A stretch of 64,000 nt of DNA. Origin: Mucilaginibacter gilvus (GTDB lineage: Bacteria; Bacteroidota; Bacteroidia; Sphingobacteriales; Sphingobacteriaceae). The stretch lies in assembly GCF_004054195.1 (NCBI RefSeq), contig NZ_SBIW01000008.1:62001-126000 (forward strand). The letters are read 5' to 3'. The notes under the pieces are model-generated. The model ran no database searches, was not told the origin of the DNA, and saw only the letters and a program-made list of their open reading frames with translations. The translations under genes and the position numbers were made by a program. Shown one piece after another: positions 26,109 to 34,965 of the stretch. The number at the start of each line of letters is the position of its first letter. Within the stretch, counting starts at the first letter, position 1.

Positions 26109-29100
26109 TTGGTTAAAAATTTTACTTGTAAACTTTTTATAGGTACGCTTTTTTTATCCGCATTTTGCGGAACAGGGAAACTATTTGCCCAGCAGCAAAG
26201 CGCGGGGCAACAACAAAGCACCGGGCAGCAACCAATACCCGGGCAAACAAACATCCCGCGCCCCGGCCAGCAGCAACGCGCAAACCAGCCGCAAGTACAA
26301 CAACCAACACCAAACACCGCGCCTGCAGATACTACCCGGCCCCGTAATGCCGCGCCCTTAAGCAACGCTCCAAAACTGACCAAAACCCGTAACCAATGGG
26401 CATTGGAAGGCCTTTTTGATGTAGACCCGCCGGGTACAACGCGTACCGTGGAATACGATCTGGCAACCAACACTTACATCATTTACAAAAAACTGGGAAA
26501 TTTAAATTACGGTGTGCCCCTGTACTTAAGCCCTACCGAATACTTAAAGCTCCAACAAAAAGGCGTACAGCGCGAGTATTATAAACAACTGGCAGATAAT
26601 TACGCTTATGAATCGCAGCAGCCGGGGTTTATACCGCAAATAAAGATTCGCAGCAAAACGTTTGAGCAGATCTTTGGCAGCTCAACCATCAACATCCGCC
26701 CGCAGGGTTCGGCAGAGGTGATATTAGCCGGGCAGATCAACAAGAACGAAAACCCGCTTTTTAATACCCGCCAGCGCAGCCAGTTCAATTTTAATTTTGA
26801 TCAGCGGATCCAGCTGAACGTAACCGGCGATATTGGCGACAAGCTGAAAATAAGTACCAATTACAATACCGAGGCCCAGTTTCAGTTTGAGAACCAGATA
26901 AAGCTGGATTATACCGGCCATCCCGACGAAATTATCCAGAAGATAGAAGCCGGTACTGTAAGCATGCCCCTCAATACCTCGCTTATTACCGGCAGCCAGG
27001 CACTTTTTGGGGTGAAAACAAAACTGAAGTTTGGTAAGCTGGATATCACCACCATCTTGTCGCAGCAGCGTTCGCAATCAAAAAGCATTACCATTACCAA
27101 TGGCTCGCAGCAGGGCAACATCGCGCTTACGGCTGCGGAGTACGAATCCAATAAACACTTTTTCCTGTCGCAATATTTCAGGAATAACTACAACCGGGCG
27201 CTGGCCAATATCCCCATCATCAGCTCCAACATCAACATTACTAAAATTGAGGTTTGGACAACCAACCGTACCAACGTTACCACCGATAGCCGCGATATAC
27301 TGGCCTTTTTGGACCTGGGCGAAAACAGGCCTTACAATACCGCGCTGGTGCAGGGCGGGCCGGGCTTTAGCGGTTTACCCGCGGGTTTCAAGGGACCGGG
27401 CTTTACGCAGCAATCCAATACCCTGTTGCAAAACTTACCGTCAACGGCGCGTATAACCAACTCTAATGATGTTTCTACTTACTTCCGCGCTACCGGCGCT
27501 ACAGATAACTACGCCAAGGTAACCTACGCCCGCAAGCTTACCCCAACTGAGTACACGCTGCACCCTCAACTGGGCTACATATCGTTAAACTACCCGTTGG
27601 ATAACGACCAGGTGCTGGCGGTTGCCTACCAGTATTCTTACAACGGGCAAGTATACCAGGTGGGCGAGTTCAGCAGCGATGTAGCGGTAGACCCGGCAAC
27701 GCCCAAGGCGCTTTTTGTAAAATTATTAAAGAACGAGCTGCTAAAAACTAACCTGCCAACCTGGGACCTGATGATGAAAAACATCTATTCCCTGGGCGCT
27801 TATGGTATCAGCCCATCAAACTTTAAACTGAATGTTAGCCGTTTGGATGATAAATCCGGGATCGAAAAAACGATAATGGACGAGGGCGCCAATACTAAAA
27901 GCAAGCGCTGGCTGCAGTTAACCGGGGTGGATAACCTCGATCAGCAAAACGATAAGCGACCCGATGGCTACTTCGACTTTTTGGAGGGTATCACCATCGA
28001 TTCGCAAAACGGGCGCATTATGTTCCCGGTGGTGGAACCCTTCGGTGCCGATCTCGCGAAGCAATTTACCGCGGGTGAACAGGACCTGGTGGCCCGCTAC
28101 GTATACCAACCGCTGTACGATTCTACCAAAACCATCGCGCAGCAATTATTCCCAAAGCTAAACAGGTATCTCATTAAAGGCACTTACACCTCCACCCAGG
28201 GCTCGGAGTACCAGCTAAATGCTGTGAATATTCCGCAGGGCTCGGTAGTGGTTACGGCGGGAAATTTAAAACTGAACGAGGGCGCTGATTATACTGTTGA
28301 TTACAGCTCTGGCCGGATCCGCATCCTTAACCAGGCTTTGCTTTCTTCCGGCCAGCCCATCAACATTAAAATAGAGAATAACGAGCTGTTTGGCGTTCAG
28401 CAGAAATCCCTCTGGGGTACACGGCTGGATTACCGGGCAAGCAATAAGCTGGCCCTGGGTGCTACCTTTATGCACCTCACCGAGCAGCCCATCACCCAAA
28501 ACGAGGTGGTAGGAGAGGAATCTATATCCAACAGTATCTTCGGGTTCGATGCCAATTACAGCACCACGTCAAGGCTTTTAACGCGCCTGGTAGATAAGAT
28601 CCCTTTAATAAATACCAAGGCACCATCAACCATTAACCTAAGCGGCGAGTTTGCTAGGCTAATGCCAGGAAGCCCGGGCGCGCTGAACTTTGCAGGCTCC
28701 AAGAACGGTACTTCTTACCTGGACGATTTTGAGAATAGCCGCTCGGTTATTGATATAAAAAGCGCGGTAAGCTGGCAAATTGCAGGTACGCCGCAGATGT
28801 TCCCCGAATCGCAATTGTTTAACGATCTGAGTTATGGCTACAACCGCGCCCGCTTGACCTTTTATAATATCGACCCGATATTTTACACCAGCGCCGGCAA
28901 TATTGCGGTAAACCGTACCGACCTGTCCAACCATTACGTAAGGCAGGTGATTGAGCAGGAGGTGTTCCCATTTAAGCAGTCGGTAACTGGCCAGCCGCTA
29001 ACCTTGTCAACCTTTAACCTTGCCTTTTATCCAACGGCACGCGGGCAATATAACTATGCCACATCGGGCATCAATACAGATGGCACATTACAAGGCCCAA

Positions 29101-32100
29101 AAAACCGCTGGGGCGGCATCTTCCGCAAGCTGGAGACAAACGATTTTGAATCGAACAATATCGGGTACATCGAATTTTGGGTGCTCGACCCCTTTATTTA
29201 CAAACCGGCCTCGCAAGGTGGCGACCTGTATTTTAACCTCGGGAGCATTTCTGAGGACATCCTGAAAGACGGGCGCAAGAGTTTGGAGAACAGCCTGCCC
29301 GTAGATGGCGCTACCGATAAAACCGACGAAACCGTTTGGGGCCGGGTATCTAAATTGCAGCCGGTAATAAATGCCTTTGATAATAACCCCGATTCGCGCC
29401 GTTTACAGGATACTGGTTTGGATGGTTTGAACGATACGGATGAGCAATCGAAATTTGCCAATGTGGTAAACCAGGCAAAGGCGGTGCTGAGTCCGCAGGC
29501 CGCTACTGCGTTCTCCGCCGACCCTTCAACAGATGACTACCGCTACTACCAAGGGCCCGAGCTTGACCAGGCGCGCGCCGGTATTTTAGAGCGTTATAGC
29601 CGCTACAACGGTACCGAGGGTAACTCCAAAACCGCAGAGCAATCACAAGCGGAACTTGGCCTGCAAACATCGGCCTCCACATCCCTGCCCGATGGTGAGG
29701 ACATTAACCGGGATAATAACATGAGCCAAACGGATGAATACTTCCAGTACAGGGTATCCATCCGCCCGCAGGATATGCTGGTTGGCCAAAACTATATCAG
29801 CGATAAAGTAAAATCGAACGTAAAACTGGCCAACGGGCAAACAGAAGCGGTTACATGGTATCAGTTCAGGATCCCGATAACCGACTACCAAAGCAAAGTA
29901 GGCAACATTCAGGATTTTAAGGCCATCCGTTTTATGCGTATGTTCATGACCAACTTTGCCGATACCTCGGTATTACGTTTTGCCACCCTGCAGCTGGTAC
30001 GTGGCGAATGGCGCAGCTTTAACGCCGAGAATAACCCGCTGAACATCATTGCCGACCCGGCCATCCAAAGCCCAACGGTTGATAACTCGGTATTGGATGT
30101 GCAGGCCGTAAATATTGAAGAGAACGGTAACCGCACCCCAATACCTTACGTGGTGCCACCGGGCATTAACCGCCAGCGCAATTACAATAACCTGCAAACA
30201 GATACCAAGCTGAATGAGCAATCGCTCTCCTTAAAGGTTACCAACCTGCGCGATGGTTACTCAAGGGCGGCTTTCCGTACATTTTTTAACGATCTGCGGT
30301 CGTACAAAAAGATCCAGATGTTTATCCATGCCGAGGGCGACCAGTTGAAGGATAACGATGTAAATGCCTTTATACGCCTGGGTGTTGATTACCAGGACAA
30401 CTATTACGAATACGAAGTACCACTGGCCATTACCCAGCAGGGTACCCGCGACCCCGGTGCTATATGGCCCGCGAGTAACGAACTTAACCTGGAGCTGGAC
30501 CTGCTCACCAGCGCCAAGCTTGCCCGTAACAATGCCAAGCTAAACGGCCTGCCATGGCCGTTTACCACCCCGTTTATTTACACCGACGGGCATAACAAAG
30601 TAACCATTAAAGGCCAACCCGACCTGAGCCGACTGCGTACTATTATGGTAGGTGTGCGTAACCCGTACAAAGGCAATAATACAGGCGCAGATGATGGGCT
30701 GGATAAAACCGGTACCCTGTGGTTTGATGAATTGCGCCTCACTGATTTTGACCAGCGTGGTGGCTGGGCGGCAACAGCCAGGGCCGATTTCGCGCTGGCA
30801 GATTTTGCCAATATTACCTTATCGGGCAGTAAAAGTACCGTTGGGTTTGGTTCGCTGGATTCGCGCGTGAGCGACAGGAGCCGCAGCGATAACCAGATCT
30901 ATGATATATCGGGCAGTGTGGAGCTGGGCAAGTTCTTCCCGGCTAAAAGCGGGATCAAGATACCGGCGTATATTAACATAAGCAACCAGGTAGCAACCCC
31001 GCAGTACGACCCGCAATCGCCTGATGTGGAACTGAAGAAAACGCTTGCAGCCGCACCAACCTCGCAGGCGAGAGATTCTATCCGGAATGTATCGATAGAT
31101 TATACCATGCGTAAAAGCATCAACTTTACAAACGTGCACAAAGAGCATACCAACGCCAGCGCGCCGGTACATGTTTGGGATGTAGAGAACTTTAATGCCA
31201 CCTACGCCTACACCGAATACACCCACCACGATTTTATTGTGGAAAGCGACCTGGCCCGTACTTACCGTGTAAGCCTGGCCTATAACTACAGCACCCAACC
31301 TAAGTATTATACACCTTTCGGGAAGATCATTAAAAGTAACCTGCTGGCTTTGGCGAGGGATTTTAACTTCAGCTTACTGCCATCGAGGTTGAACTTCGCT
31401 ATCAATTTCGACAGGTATTATTCAGAGAATACCCTGCGTAATAACGACCCGAATAACTATATCCCAATACCCACCAGTTTCAACAAAAACTTTAATATAA
31501 CCCGCGTTTATGGTATCGGCTGGAATTTATCCAAATCGCTGCAGATGGATATTGATGCCACCAACTTATCGGTAGTGGATGAGCCGGCCGGCCGTATCAA
31601 CGGGCTTAAACGCGATACACTTTGGGAAAACCTGAAAAGGCTGGGCCGTACTACCAACTACAACCACACCATCAACTTTAACTACACCACGCCGATAAAC
31701 AAAATCCCGGGGCTGGACTGGACAGCCCTGATAGCGCGTTACAGCACCCACTTTAACTGGCAAACCCAGCCCGAGTTCGCCATCAACAACCCGGATTATA
31801 ACGTTGGTAACAGCATTCAAAACTCGCGCACCATACAGTTAAACCCTACGCTTAACTTTACAACCTTCTATAACAAGTTTAAGGCGCTGCGCAAAGGCAA
31901 TAATGATAATGGCGGTGTAGGCGGGTTCTTCCTGGGCGTATTAACCAGCGTGAAAAACCTGAGCGGTACGTATACCCGCACCGAGGGTACCTTCTTGCCG
32001 GGGTATTTGCCGCAGTCGAATTTCTTTGGGCAGGATTTTTCTTACGATTCGCCAGGGATAGGCTTTCTGCTGGGCAGCCAGGCAGATCTGCGTAATAAAG

Positions 32101-33272
32101 CGATAGAACGGGGATGGATAACCTCGGATACCCTGCAAAACCAGCCCTACGTAACCACTTTTAATTCCGATCTGCGCCTGCGTGGTATTATCGAACCCAT
32201 CAAAGATCTGCGCATCGAACTGATCGCTTTTAAAACACAGGATCGTAACTATCAAACCAACTTTAAATATCTGGCAGCTACAAACAGTATTGAGAACCTG
32301 AGCCCTACAACATCGGGTACCTACAGTGTTTCTATTTTATCGTTTGCCACGGCGTTCTCCAAATCAACAGGAATAAACAATACTTCAACAACGTTTCAGC
32401 AATTTTTAAGTAACCGGGCGATTATCTCCAAACGCCTTGGCGTAACCAACCCTAATTCTACCGGCACAACAAACGGTTTTGCAGATGGCTATGGTGCCAA
32501 TGCCCAAAACGTGCTGGTTCCGGCCTTCCTGGCGGCTTACACAGGTAAAGATGCAGGCAGTTCGTCGCTAAGCCAGTTCCCGCAAACGCCTATCCCCAAC
32601 TGGCAGATCAGTTACAGCGGGCTGGGCAAGATGCCGTTCTTTACCGAGGTGTTTGATTCCTTCGATCTGAGGCATGGCTACCGCTCATCGTACAACGTGA
32701 ATGGCTACACCACCCTGTTGCAGTACCAGGCGGCCAATGGTGCTGTAAGTTCGCGCGATGCCAATACCGATTTCCTGCCTTTTTACCAAATGACACAGGT
32801 GAGTATTTTTGAACAGTTTGTGCCGCTTTTGGGTGTGGATGTGCGTTTTAAAAACAGCATGACCGCCAACATGGAATATCGTAAAACACGTACGCTGGCA
32901 TTAAGCCTGCTCAATAGCCAGTTGGCGCAGCAAACCGAGAATATTGTGGTGGTTGGCTTTGGCTACCGCCCTAAAAACTTCCGGATGCCTTTTGGCTGGT
33001 TTGGTGGAAAAACGAATAACGACATCAACTTTAAGCTGGATGTGGCTATCCGCGATAATAAAACGCTTATTTACCGTGCCGATATTGAAGCCGCGGAGGT
33101 ATCATCCGGTGCAAAAAACATCACCATGCGCCCATCGATAGATTACGTGATCAACCAGCGCTTCAACCTCAATTTATTCTACGATAGCAATATCACCAAG
33201 CCATACACCTCGCAAACGTTCAATACTTCGTTCACCAACTTTGGCTTGAATTTGAAATTGTTGTTGCAGTAA
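26109..33272 (+). CDS. sprA: SprA, giant outer-membrane T9SS translocon protein
   Basis: A 2387-residue homologue of Flavobacterium SprA (Sov in Porphyromonas). It is the outer-membrane channel of the type IX secretion system that exports CTD-tagged proteins and gliding adhesins. A signal peptide (about 1-28) is followed by a Gln/Pro-rich stretch to about residue 80, then alternating beta-rich domains typical of SprA. A TAA lies two codons upstream, and no ATG precedes the signal peptide, so TTG at 26109 is the only likely start. It is the third gene behind maeB and ruvA. No other T9SS genes (gldKLMN, porV) are in the window. A nested inverted repeat follows. Confidence 0.95.
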   Translation: MVKNFTCKLFIGTLFLSAFCGTGKLFAQQQSAGQQQSTGQQPIPGQTNIPRPGQQQRANQPQVQQPTPNTAPADTTRPRNAAPLSNAPKLTKTRNQWALEGLFDVDPPGTTRTVEYDLATNTYIIYKKLGNLNYGVPLYLSPTEYLKLQQKGVQREYYKQLADNYAYESQQPGFIPQIKIRSKTFEQIFGSSTINIRPQGSAEVILAGQINKNENPLFNTRQRSQFNFNFDQRIQLNVTGDIGDKLKISTNYNTEAQFQFENQIKLDYTGHPDEIIQKIEAGTVSMPLNTSLITGSQALFGVKTKLKFGKLDITTILSQQRSQSKSITITNGSQQGNIALTAAEYESNKHFFLSQYFRNNYNRALANIPIISSNINITKIEVWTTNRTNVTTDSRDILAFLDLGENRPYNTALVQGGPGFSGLPAGFKGPGFTQQSNTLLQNLPSTARITNSNDVSTYFRATGATDNYAKVTYARKLTPTEYTLHPQLGYISLNYPLDNDQVLAVAYQYSYNGQVYQVGEFSSDVAVDPATPKALFVKLLKNELLKTNLPTWDLMMKNIYSLGAYGISPSNFKLNVSRLDDKSGIEKTIMDEGANTKSKRWLQLTGVDNLDQQNDKRPDGYFDFLEGITIDSQNGRIMFPVVEPFGADLAKQFTAGEQDLVARYVYQPLYDSTKTIAQQLFPKLNRYLIKGTYTSTQGSEYQLNAVNIPQGSVVVTAGNLKLNEGADYTVDYSSGRIRILNQALLSSGQPINIKIENNELFGVQQKSLWGTRLDYRASNKLALGATFMHLTEQPITQNEVVGEESISNSIFGFDANYSTTSRLLTRLVDKIPLINTKAPSTINLSGEFARLMPGSPGALNFAGSKNGTSYLDDFENSRSVIDIKSAVSWQIAGTPQMFPESQLFNDLSYGYNRARLTFYNIDPIFYTSAGNIAVNRTDLSNHYVRQVIEQEVFPFKQSVTGQPLTLSTFNLAFYPTARGQYNYATSGINTDGTLQGPKNRWGGIFRKLETNDFESNNIGYIEFWVLDPFIYKPASQGGDLYFNLGSISEDILKDGRKSLENSLPVDGATDKTDETVWGRVSKLQPVINAFDNNPDSRRLQDTGLDGLNDTDEQSKFANVVNQAKAVLSPQAATAFSADPSTDDYRYYQGPELDQARAGILERYSRYNGTEGNSKTAEQSQAELGLQTSASTSLPDGEDINRDNNMSQTDEYFQYRVSIRPQDMLVGQNYISDKVKSNVKLANGQTEAVTWYQFRIPITDYQSKVGNIQDFKAIRFMRMFMTNFADTSVLRFATLQLVRGEWRSFNAENNPLNIIADPAIQSPTVDNSVLDVQAVNIEENGNRTPIPYVVPPGINRQRNYNNLQTDTKLNEQSLSLKVTNLRDGYSRAAFRTFFNDLRSYKKIQMFIHAEGDQLKDNDVNAFIRLGVDYQDNYYEYEVPLAITQQGTRDPGAIWPASNELNLELDLLTSAKLARNNAKLNGLPWPFTTPFIYTDGHNKVTIKGQPDLSRLRTIMVGVRNPYKGNNTGADDGLDKTGTLWFDELRLTDFDQRGGWAATARADFALADFANITLSGSKSTVGFGSLDSRVSDRSRSDNQIYDISGSVELGKFFPAKSGIKIPAYINISNQVATPQYDPQSPDVELKKTLAAAPTSQARDSIRNVSIDYTMRKSINFTNVHKEHTNASAPVHVWDVENFNATYAYTEYTHHDFIVESDLARTYRVSLAYNYSTQPKYYTPFGKIIKSNLLALARDFNFSLLPSRLNFAINFDRYYSENTLRNNDPNNYIPIPTSFNKNFNITRVYGIGWNLSKSLQMDIDATNLSVVDEPAGRINGLKRDTLWENLKRLGRTTNYNHTINFNYTTPINKIPGLDWTALIARYSTHFNWQTQPEFAINNPDYNVGNSIQNSRTIQLNPTLNFTTFYNKFKALRKGNNDNGGVGGFFLGVLTSVKNLSGTYTRTEGTFLPGYLPQSNFFGQDFSYDSPGIGFLLGSQADLRNKAIERGWITSDTLQNQPYVTTFNSDLRLRGIIEPIKDLRIELIAFKTQDRNYQTNFKYLAATNSIENLSPTTSGTYSVSILSFATAFSKSTGINNTSTTFQQFLSNRAIISKRLGVTNPNSTGTTNGFADGYGANAQNVLVPAFLAAYTGKDAGSSSLSQFPQTPIPNWQISYSGLGKMPFFTEVFDSFDLRHGYRSSYNVNGYTTLLQYQAANGAVSSRDANTDFLPFYQMTQVSIFEQFVPLLGVDVRFKNSMTANMEYRKTRTLALSLLNSQLAQQTENIVVVGFGYRPKNFRMPFGWFGGKTNNDINFKLDVAIRDNKTLIYRADIEAAEVSSGAKNITMRPSIDYVINQRFNLNLFYDSNITKPYTSQTFNTSFTNFGLNLKLLLQ

Positions 33273-33278
33273 TAGTCC

Positions 33279-33522
33279 GAATCAGAATTTACAGGATTTT
33301 AGAATTTTCAGAATGTAAAGTTGATGGTGGTTGACATATACCTCCACGTCATGCTGAAATCTTTTCAGCACCCCATCATTAAAGTCGTCACAAAGCATTG
33401 CGGTGATACGTGGTTTTTTAGCAAAGTTCGCCACTTGCCGTGTGAGGTGCTGAAAAGATTTCAGCATGACGGGACAGGGGATTTATATTCTGAAAATTCT
33501 AAAATCCTGTTAATTCTGATTC
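33279..33522. repeat. Nested double inverted repeat
   Basis: The outer arms are 36 bp (33279-33314 and 33487-33522) with one mismatch. The inner arms are 26 bp (33347-33372 and 33446-33471) and perfectly complementary. Each inner arm is itself a hairpin: TGCTGAAA-TCT-TTTCAGCA on the left and TGCTGAAA-AGA-TTTCAGCA on the right. The 73-bp centre has no open frame of note. It sits between convergent sprA and sdaA and may serve as a terminator for both. The design resembles a small non-autonomous element built of two REP-like units. Confidence 0.85.
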
Positions 33523-33534
33523 AGACAACCAACC

Positions 33535-34965
33535 CTAACACTCCGGCAAGCTGATGGGGATATTGATGGCCAGTCCGCCATCGGATGTTTCTTTGTATTT
33601 GGAGTTCATATCCAGAGCGGTTTGCCACATGGTACGTACCACTGCATCCAGGCTTACTTTGGCTTTATCGGGATTGCTTTGCAGGGCAAGCTGCGTGGCG
33701 GTGATAGCTTTTATGGCACCCATAGTGTTCCGTTCGATGCAAGGCACCTGTACAAGCCCGCCAATAGGGTCGCAGGTGAGGCCGAGGTGGTGCTCCATGG
33801 CAATTTCGGCGGCCATTAAAACCTGGCGCTGACTGCCACCCAATACCTCGGTAAGCGCTGCCGCGGCCATGGCCGATGATACACCAATTTCGGCCTGGCA
33901 ACCGCCCATAGCGGCAGATATGGTGGCACCTTTTTTAAAGATGCTGCCTACCTCCGATGCGGTGAACATAAACTGGATGATGCGCTGCTCGTCAAATCCA
34001 TCGCAAAAGCAGATGAAGTATTGGAGCACCGCCGGAATAACCCCCGCGGCGCCGTTGGTAGGCGCGGTAACTACACGGCCAAAGCTGGCGTTCTCTTCGT
34101 TAACGGCCAGCGCGAAGCAGCTCACCCAGTCTAAAATATTCTGGAAGCTATTACCTGTTTCACGGATGGCCGCTACCCATTCGGTGTAATTGCTGTAACT
34201 ACGCCCGGCCAATAATCGTTTATTTAAGGCGAAAGCACGACGAGCCACATTCAGCCCGCCGGGCAGGCTGCCGGTAGTATGGCAGCCACGGTACATGCAT
34301 TCTGTCATTACCTTAAATATCTGCAGCGTACCGTTACGTGTATCGGCTTCGCTGCGCCAGGCAAGCTCATTTTCGGCGACAACTTCTGATATTTTGAGCC
34401 CGGTTTTTAAACACCAGTGCAGCAGGTCGCCGGCGGTATCAATAGGGAAGGGCAGGTCTACCTCTGTCTTGTGCGATGCATTCGAACCCTCCTTCACCAC
34501 AAAACCACCGCCTATAGAGTAAAACGTTGCCGTTACGGCTTTTCCATTGCTTAAAAAAGCCTGGAAGGTTACCGCGTTGGGGTGAAAGGGGAGGCTTTCG
34601 GTAAAGAGAAAAAGCATGTCATCATCAAAATTAAAGCTTACCTCTTTAGTGCCGCCAAGCATTAGTTTATGCCCGGTGTTTATCTCCGCAATTTTGCTGT
34701 TGATCCTATCTACCTCAAAGGTGACAGGGTCGTCGCCGCTTAAGCCAAGGAGGATGGCAATATCGGTGCCGTGGCCCCTGCCGGTTTTGGCCAGCGAGCC
34801 GTAAAGCAAAACTTTAACTTCTACCACAAGAGGCAGCGCCTCCTGTTCGGCAAGTAGGGCAATAAACTGCTGTGCCGCGCGCCATGGCCCAAGCGTATGG
34901 GAACTTGACGGGCCAATGCCTATCTTAAACATATCGAATACCGAAATTTGCTCTCTTTGCATCAC
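33535..34965 (-). CDS. sdaA: L-serine ammonia-lyase (iron-sulfur)
   Basis: Deaminates L-serine to pyruvate and ammonia with an oxygen-sensitive 4Fe-4S cluster. The 476 residues comprise an N-terminal beta domain (start [20 protein letters not shown]) and a C-terminal alpha domain. The alpha domain carries [16 protein letters not shown] and [18 protein letters not shown], with Cys residues that serve the cluster. The frame opens with GTG at 34965, directly followed by ATG at 34962, which is the more likely start (475 residues). It lies downstream of a consensus -7 box. Confidence 0.95.

Follow-up and report, generated by a model that had tools for sequence, protein, structure and literature searches.

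Background

REPINs, the repeats that go with RAYT proteins, are inverted pairs of palindromes present in many gene-less copies, and free-standing homing endonucleases of the GIY-YIG and PD-(D/E)XK kinds are elements whose sole gene is a small nuclease gene. MITEs are short gene-less elements with terminal inverted repeats that are common to longer, gene-bearing ones. In the portions of Di Nocera et al. (2013, PMC3733652) consulted here, REPtrons are likewise inverted palindrome pairs with many gene-less copies and a few gene-bearing ones within the same repeats. The same portions define the CGTC-tagged REPs, which occur mostly as head-to-head dimers and apparently have no dedicated transposase; they also equate neisserial CGTC-1 with dRS3, describe REP dimers inside palindromes in other bacteria, and leave open which enzyme, if any, spreads the CGTC REPs. 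The main text of a 2025 REP survey (PMC12306157) contains neither "GIY-YIG" nor "transposase".

The palindrome described below lies in a stretch of DNA of 64 kb from Mucilaginibacter gilvus (the window) and resembles each of these systems in part. Like REPtrons and REPINs it belongs to inverted palindrome pairs with many gene-less and few gene-bearing copies, but those systems have a Y1 HUH protein where a PD-(D/E)XK or GIY-YIG gene is found here, the GTAG tag is absent here, and the outer arms here are arrays of ~9-nt units. It is like MITEs in sharing its terminal repeats with longer gene-bearing copies, and differs from them in lacking a transposase of any known class; nor did the sites compared show a clear target-site duplication. 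Homing endonucleases have one cognate site, whereas the elements here are bounded by inverted repeats and have numerous gene-less copies at many unrelated sites.

The palindrome between sprA and sdaA

An earlier note on this DNA had described a nested double inverted repeat at 33279-33522, and direct reading and a repeat search of the window both confirm it (Table 1). In that search the outer arms are 45 nt long and 93% complementary, so the outer repeat is present but somewhat longer than the 36 bp claimed; the 36-bp stretch with one mismatch is readable inside the longer arms at 33279-33314 and 33487-33522. The inner arms, 29 nt long and 97% complementary, contain the perfect 26-bp stretch; each is also a small palindrome in its own right (TGCTGAAA..TTTCAGCA), as the note had said. 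The structure of the whole is far beyond chance: its RNA fold is -128.8 kcal/mol against -56.9 +/- 4.5 kcal/mol for 200 dinucleotide shuffles (z -15.9, reached by 0/200), and as DNA it folds with z -14.2 (0/200 shuffles). A 22-nt piece of the outer arm, searched with up to 3 mismatches, has only two sites in the 64-kb window, the two arms themselves (0 expected). A search of the palindrome against Rfam gave only four matches, to miRNA-type hairpins and RefA5, all far below the gathering score. The neighbouring 2387-aa and 476-aa ORFs are presumably sprA and sdaA, respectively; both names come from the earlier note and fit these proteins.

Table 1. Coordinates of the nested palindrome and its neighbours in the window
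Feature	Position	Strand	Remark
Whole outer element	33275..33526	.	Gene-less inverted pair of the GTCTGAATCAG family (GxxExxY-type), like-armed
Outer left arm	33275..33319	+	GTCCGAATCAGAATTTACAGGATTTTAGAATTTTCAGAATGTAAA; direct-repeat units of ~9 nt (unit length from the lag-9 autocorrelation of GxxExxY arms in general)
Outer right arm	33482..33526	-	Inverted copy of outer left arm
Inner left arm	33347..33375	+	CGTC-tagged palindromic repeat (CGTCATGCTGAAATCTTTTCAGCACCCCA)
Inner right arm	33443..33471	-	CGTC-tagged palindromic repeat, head-to-head with inner left arm
Spacer of inner CGTC pair	33376..33442	.	Gene-less; counterpart in the C24:192956-193412 copy is a GIY-YIG-like gene
sprA	26109..33272	+	2387-aa ORF, upstream neighbour
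sdaA	33535..34965	-	476-aa ORF, convergent neighbour

The outer arm family

A BLAST search with the element retrieved at least 106 matches from its own genome (G000; 5.42 Mb in 31 contigs), a lower bound that comes from 40 of 64 candidates scored, and a profile made from the outer arms found at least 56 arms in the stretches fetched, with the approximate consensus GTCTGAATCAGAATTTACAGAATTTTAGAATTTTCAGAAT. Twenty-three pairs of neighbouring arms lie less than 500 nt apart, 22 of them facing inward and one in tandem, and the loop between the arms of the 22 inward-facing pairs is mostly short. With ORFs counted from 100 aa upward, none of the 22 pairs lies inside an ORF and many begin within a few bases of one. 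The earlier note had offered a small mobile palindromic element as one reading, and this is supported by the many copies in the same layout and by family members that are present or absent at another site in relatives (see below).

Conservation of a perfect hairpin is not a feature of the family, since arms within an element resemble each other slightly less (0.757) than arms taken from different elements do (0.793), a difference that contradicts selection for complementarity within an element (1998 of 2000 permutations were at least as high). In arm identity the window pair ranks first among the 22 (0.95). It is also the sole like pair among the 12 that could be typed on both sides, the other 11 being unlike, under a simple three-letter rule (type T or A) that left at least one side untyped in the other 10 of the 22 pairs.

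The earlier note's other proposal, a designed dual terminator for sprA and sdaA, is not supported by the family or the site. A bidirectional terminator or a protector of mRNA ends would suit a very stable fold that sits between convergent genes and starts 2 nt past the sprA stop codon. A scan for intrinsic terminators (GC-rich stem plus T run), however, found none within 33275-33526 and two sites at 33563-33586, and only 5 of the 22 family pairs lie between convergent ORFs, 13 being between tandem and 4 between divergent ones. Furthermore, among the same-genus matches listed, sprA and sdaA are adjacent only in G025, and there the gap between them holds other, TGTC-tagged pairs and not this element. 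We consider this explanation very improbable, though the element may still act as a weak terminator after having landed behind sprA.

GxxExxY genes between outer-type arms

An outer-type pair at C20:474469-474963, between leuC and leuD, encloses a gene whose ORF matches PF13366 (PD-(D/E)XK, 107 bits) and TIGR04256 (GxxExxY). This copy is putatively autonomous, and the window's outer repeats are shared with it, as MITE repeats are with those of their gene-bearing relatives. A GxxExxY gene also lies inside the same arms in a relative (G003, contig C15), and the window's outer arms are of the same kind as those around the gene in both genomes. All three GxxExxY genes found in the own genome are bounded by inverted repeats, which are of three different sequences (GTCTGAATCAG..., CACGAATTTCACGAAT... 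and TCTGAACCGG...), and all three kinds recur elsewhere in that genome, away from the gene. In the own genome gene-less outer copies outnumber gene-bearing ones. GxxExxY matches were found in 46 of the 60 genomes searched, own included.

The arrangement is general for the gene. Flank scores were computed at thresholds of 12, 14, 16 and 20, and are quoted at 14 for GxxExxY and at 16 for GIY-YIG; the shuffles in these tests are single-base shuffles. A first set of 33 GxxExxY loci comprised 3 from the own genome and 30 from relatives (the best 30 of a longer list, mostly one per genome), and 2 were dropped for a short flank; 28 of the remaining 31 have a flanking inverted repeat that scores at least 14, against 2/124 shifted and 0/155 shuffled controls. 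GTDB genomes supplied a second set (80 loci, the best of 586 confirmed stretches; 5 dropped for a short flank), in which the fraction was 56/75 against 0/274 shifted and 1/225 shuffled; 19 of the 75 fell below the threshold, and a few of the 56 passing loci are AT-rich matches without units (e.g. L406, L375, L369 and L364). By record title, this second set reaches beyond Bacteroidota to a planctomycete and a Pyrinomonadaceae MAG. The control was another small multicopy family of the same 60 genomes, the cold-shock genes (the best 30 of a longer list, 2 dropped for a short flank), which gave 0/28 at 16, 1/28 at 14 and 3/28 at 12.

The GxxExxY arms are arrays of units, with a mean autocorrelation peak at lag 9 (0.39). 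All Mantel tests were confined to loci whose repeat passed the threshold and whose match could be read as an open frame; among these, the more alike two proteins are, the more alike are their arms (Mantel r 0.51, 28 loci, 0/5000 permutations), and the same holds within the genus (r 0.44, 15 loci, 0/5000 permutations).

In an alignment of 20 GxxExxY sequences E23, D62, K74 and Q86 are invariant and E72 is nearly so; we take E23, D62, E72-x-K74 and Q86 to be the residues of active PD-(D/E)XK enzymes. An AlphaFold2 model of one GxxExxY protein (118 aa) has a mean pLDDT of 93.7. A fold search with this model found no match at E 0.001, and its top match was a weak one to SSO0001 (4ic1; E 0.01, TMq 0.51-0.54), which is presumably a Cas4 nuclease. 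The fold thus weakly resembles that of Cas4 and RecB-like PD-(D/E)XK nucleases, from which GxxExxY differs in being shorter (118 aa modelled). A sequence search of the PDB with the protein gave no significant match. The GxxExxY outer class was not found in the open-licence PubMed Central literature searched; in the portions of that literature consulted, the name "GxxExxY" occurs in a CRISPR reverse-transcriptase context.

Genes matching PF05635 (four-helix-bundle, 23S rRNA IVP-like) occur in 58 of the 60 genomes. We note that inverted arms scoring at least 14 bracket 23 of 28 such genes in relatives (L158-L187; the best 30 of a longer list, 2 dropped for a short flank), against 0/112 shifted controls, and that their arms are built of 7-nt units (autocorrelation 0.62 at lag 7). 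PF05635 genes and their arms may be a third family built on this principle.

The inner arms, CGTC REPs and GIY-YIG genes

Searched as a profile, the inner arms recover CGTCATGCTGAA-CTTGT/TTTAT-TTCAGCACCCCA repeats in inward-facing pairs. Both inner arms and most of the family members listed carry the CGTC (or TGTC) end, CGTCATGC..., and the family occurs in head-to-head dimers. Most copies read TGCTGAA-[5 nt]-TTCAGCA with a CCCCA end, and the CGTC REPs are recognised by a stem of 8-9 bp, a loop of 4-5 nt and a CCA tail; the window's inner stem is borderline, since its arms can be read as 7 bp with a 5-nt loop or as 8 bp with a 3-nt loop. The inner repeat is in kind a member of the described CGTC-tagged REP superfamily, which it resembles, as far as the consulted portions of PMC3733652 go, in its CGTC end, short stem with mostly a 5-nt loop, CCA tail and head-to-head dimers.

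Between the inner-type arms at C24:192956-193412 lies a minus-strand ORF of 97 aa. This ORF is probably GIY-YIG-like, judging from its conserved Y, N, Y.G, R, H and E, which we take to be the GIY-YIG motif positions, and from the annotation of many relatives of the protein as "GIY-YIG nuclease family protein"; an NCBIfam search with the 97-aa protein gave only a weak match, to another family. The positions conserved in the GIY-YIG alignment are presumably those of active GIY-YIG enzymes.

From the same 60 genomes a set of GIY-YIG loci was taken (the best 30 of a longer list, one of them own, mostly one per genome; 2 dropped for a short flank). A flanking inverted repeat scoring at least 16 is present at 25 of the 28, the other 3 being below this threshold, against 0/112 shifted and 0/140 shuffled controls. 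The arms shown are largely CGTC- or TGTC-tagged palindromes of several kinds, and arm similarity again tracks protein similarity (r 0.76, 22 loci, 0/5000 permutations).

In a plasmid collection 33 records match the GIY-YIG protein, and 15 loci were chosen from them so as to avoid near-duplicates. Flanking inverted repeats reach 16 at 13 of the 15 and 20 at 10 of the 15, against 3/30 shifted controls at either value. The passing loci include Sinorhizobium meliloti, Novosphingobium aromaticivorans, Azospirillum lipoferum and Neisseria, all of them named as CGTC hosts in the consulted portions of PMC3733652. The CGTC end is absent from some of the 13 passing repeats (e.g. Planktothrix), and no flanking inverted repeat was found at the Photobacterium and Rhizobium tumorigenes loci. 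Thus, while the portions of PMC3733652 at hand report no dedicated enzyme for CGTC-tagged REPs, most GIY-YIG genes tested here are bracketed by repeats that are largely of CGTC/TGTC type. A link between GIY-YIG genes and CGTC-type repeats was not found in the open-licence PubMed Central literature searched, where "GIY-YIG" and "repetitive extragenic palindromic" do not co-occur and where the arm strings, searched as text, retrieve only papers that look unrelated by title.

RAYT genes of the own genome

The earlier note had also thought of a RAYT-type element and of looking for a REP-associated transposase. The own genome does have two Y1_Tnp genes, of which one matches REP_Tyr_transpos above cut-off, and inverted palindrome pairs in many copies are REPIN-like, so that mobilisation by a RAYT (a Y1 tyrosine transposase), known for the REP/BIME repeats of Pseudomonas and E. 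coli, is a candidate. Neither gene, however, is flanked by arms of the outer or the inner kind. Read by eye, both adjoin other repeats; the closest outer arm is ~0.9 kb from a Y1_Tnp gene with another ORF between, and the inner arms are ~5 kb from the RAYT. The GTAG tag is missing from both arm families, whose ends are GTCTGAATCAG (outer) and CGTC (inner), and the gene-bearing copies of both hold nuclease-type genes other than RAYT. From the own genome, a RAYT origin is thus very improbable for either repeat. The REP_Tyr_transpos (RAYT) gene at G000:C24:69545-69796 (L062 5507-6055) adjoins, by eye, a long inverted repeat of its own, GCTGCCGCGAG..AACTCGTGG.

Occupied and empty sites in relatives

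The leuC-leuD junction was read in 39 genomes of the genus, own included, out of 61 searched, with each species represented by a single genome. It is empty in 4 and holds a GxxExxY element in 17, of which 16 could be read at the junction and one (G026) is known from gene-match data alone; some of these are decayed, with broken copies in G002 and G031. Gene-less CGTC/TGTC-type pairs occupy it in 7 genomes, a gene-less pair with 7-nt units in one, a tiny hairpin bearing GTCTGAATCAG ends in one, and a different small ORF in 9, some of which also have repeats there. In G080, G031 and G017 the leuC stop codon is supplied by the element's own GTCTGA. Since the contents of this junction vary and the sprA-sdaA gap of G025 differs from that of the window, neither site retains a given element.

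Several details of these junctions may be recorded here. The small ORF starts near MILEVAxLN (e.g. L305, L313 and L319) and presumably encodes an ABM-type monooxygenase. The C20:474469-474963 element has replaced the last leuC codons, and its left arm encodes the LeuC C-terminus ...SESEFSELEN; a similar LeuC end (SESEFA) is found in G011, which does not have that GxxExxY element.

A comparable contrast is seen in Azospirillum, whose sufB-sufC junction carries the GIY-YIG gene in A. lipoferum and lacks it in A. ramasamyi and A. oryzae (~96% identity over the aligned parts). Neither leuC-leuD nor sufB-sufC shows a clear target-site duplication; there the empty-site relatives have diverged or native bases have apparently been replaced. 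Two further occupants of the latter junction were seen. In Shinella sp. PSBB067 (L464) a GIY-YIG element lies between sufB- and sufC-like sequence, and in Sphingomonas parapaucimobilis (L463 663-1073) the sufB-sufC junction is occupied by a DUF559 gene which, by eye, has CCCCTCCCCTTCAGGGGAGGGG-type palindromes to its left and right. From this one locus, DUF559 and the CCCCTCCCCTTCAGGGGAGGGG-type palindromes are perhaps a further nuclease/palindrome pair.

Nested elements and their possible movers

The window palindrome is made of two elements of different families, each of which has its own nuclease-type gene-bearing copy. Only 2 of the 22 outer pairs hold an inner pair, the one in the window and the one at C20:50747-50976, and as the joints of the two differ, the nestings look independent on the sequence. 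The window most likely holds a gene-less GxxExxY-type element that was invaded by a gene-less CGTC-REP pair.

Our preferred reading of the locus, to which we give a probability of about 0.65, is that it consists of nested non-autonomous mobile hairpins, GxxExxY-type outside and CGTC-REP inside, with the two nucleases as their putative movers. The outer gene-less element would have landed directly behind the sprA stop codon, and the inner REP pair, head-to-head, would then have inserted itself into the outer hairpin's loop. Each nuclease may recognise and cut its own arms, in the form of either a cruciform or a single-strand palindrome; a break there could lead to copying of the element into new sites and so spread the gene-bearing copies, while gene-less copies would be served in trans. 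The window copies would then have been moved by nuclease action on their arms. Two unlike nuclease-type proteins each lie between, and co-vary with, their own arms, and the simplest reading of this is that each recognises its own arms.

The same observations can be read with the nuclease genes as passengers, the repeats being moved by the host or by some other process and the GxxExxY and GIY-YIG genes inserting into them or hitch-hiking. The two families, their gene-bearing copies in the same genome, the enrichment of inverted repeats at gene flanks, the coupling of arm and protein sequence and the presence or absence of elements at a shared site are established, and shared descent of gene and arms could account for part of the Mantel result. 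Passenger genes would agree with the greater number of gene-less copies, with G013, which has outer arms and no GxxExxY match, and with the other ORFs that the leuC-leuD junction can hold. Against this, distinct protein families have distinct arm classes, arm sequence tracks protein sequence in three families, most of the GxxExxY and GIY-YIG copies tested are flanked by arms, and both proteins conserve residues of catalytic type. We regard the passenger explanation as unlikely and retain the nucleases as candidate movers of the two elements.

Implications

These results hint at an overlooked class of mobile elements. It is a tentative idea, which we hold at slightly less than even odds, that the class is a widespread one in which one small protein, either a nuclease or a binder of nucleic acids, reads its own inverted arms, with GxxExxY, GIY-YIG and PF05635 versions and with intergenic palindromes as the gene-less offspring. 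If so, GxxExxY (PD-(D/E)XK) proteins would pair with arms of ~9-nt units such as ACCACAGAGnnCACAGAG or GTCTGAATCAGAATTnnCAGAATT, PF05635 four-helix-bundle proteins would pair with arms of 7-nt units, and GIY-YIG would be the missing enzyme of the CGTC REP superfamily, neisserial dRS3-type repeats included. The window would then show one element class invading the hairpin loop of another, and much of the palindromic intergenic clutter of such genomes would be the gene-less offspring of these elements. The GIY-YIG link is a directly testable candidate for the spread of CGTC REPs, as repeats and genes are both found in tractable alphaproteobacteria. A role is also proposed here for the GxxExxY family, so far named by its motif only, and an origin for part of the palindromes that lie between Bacteroidota genes.
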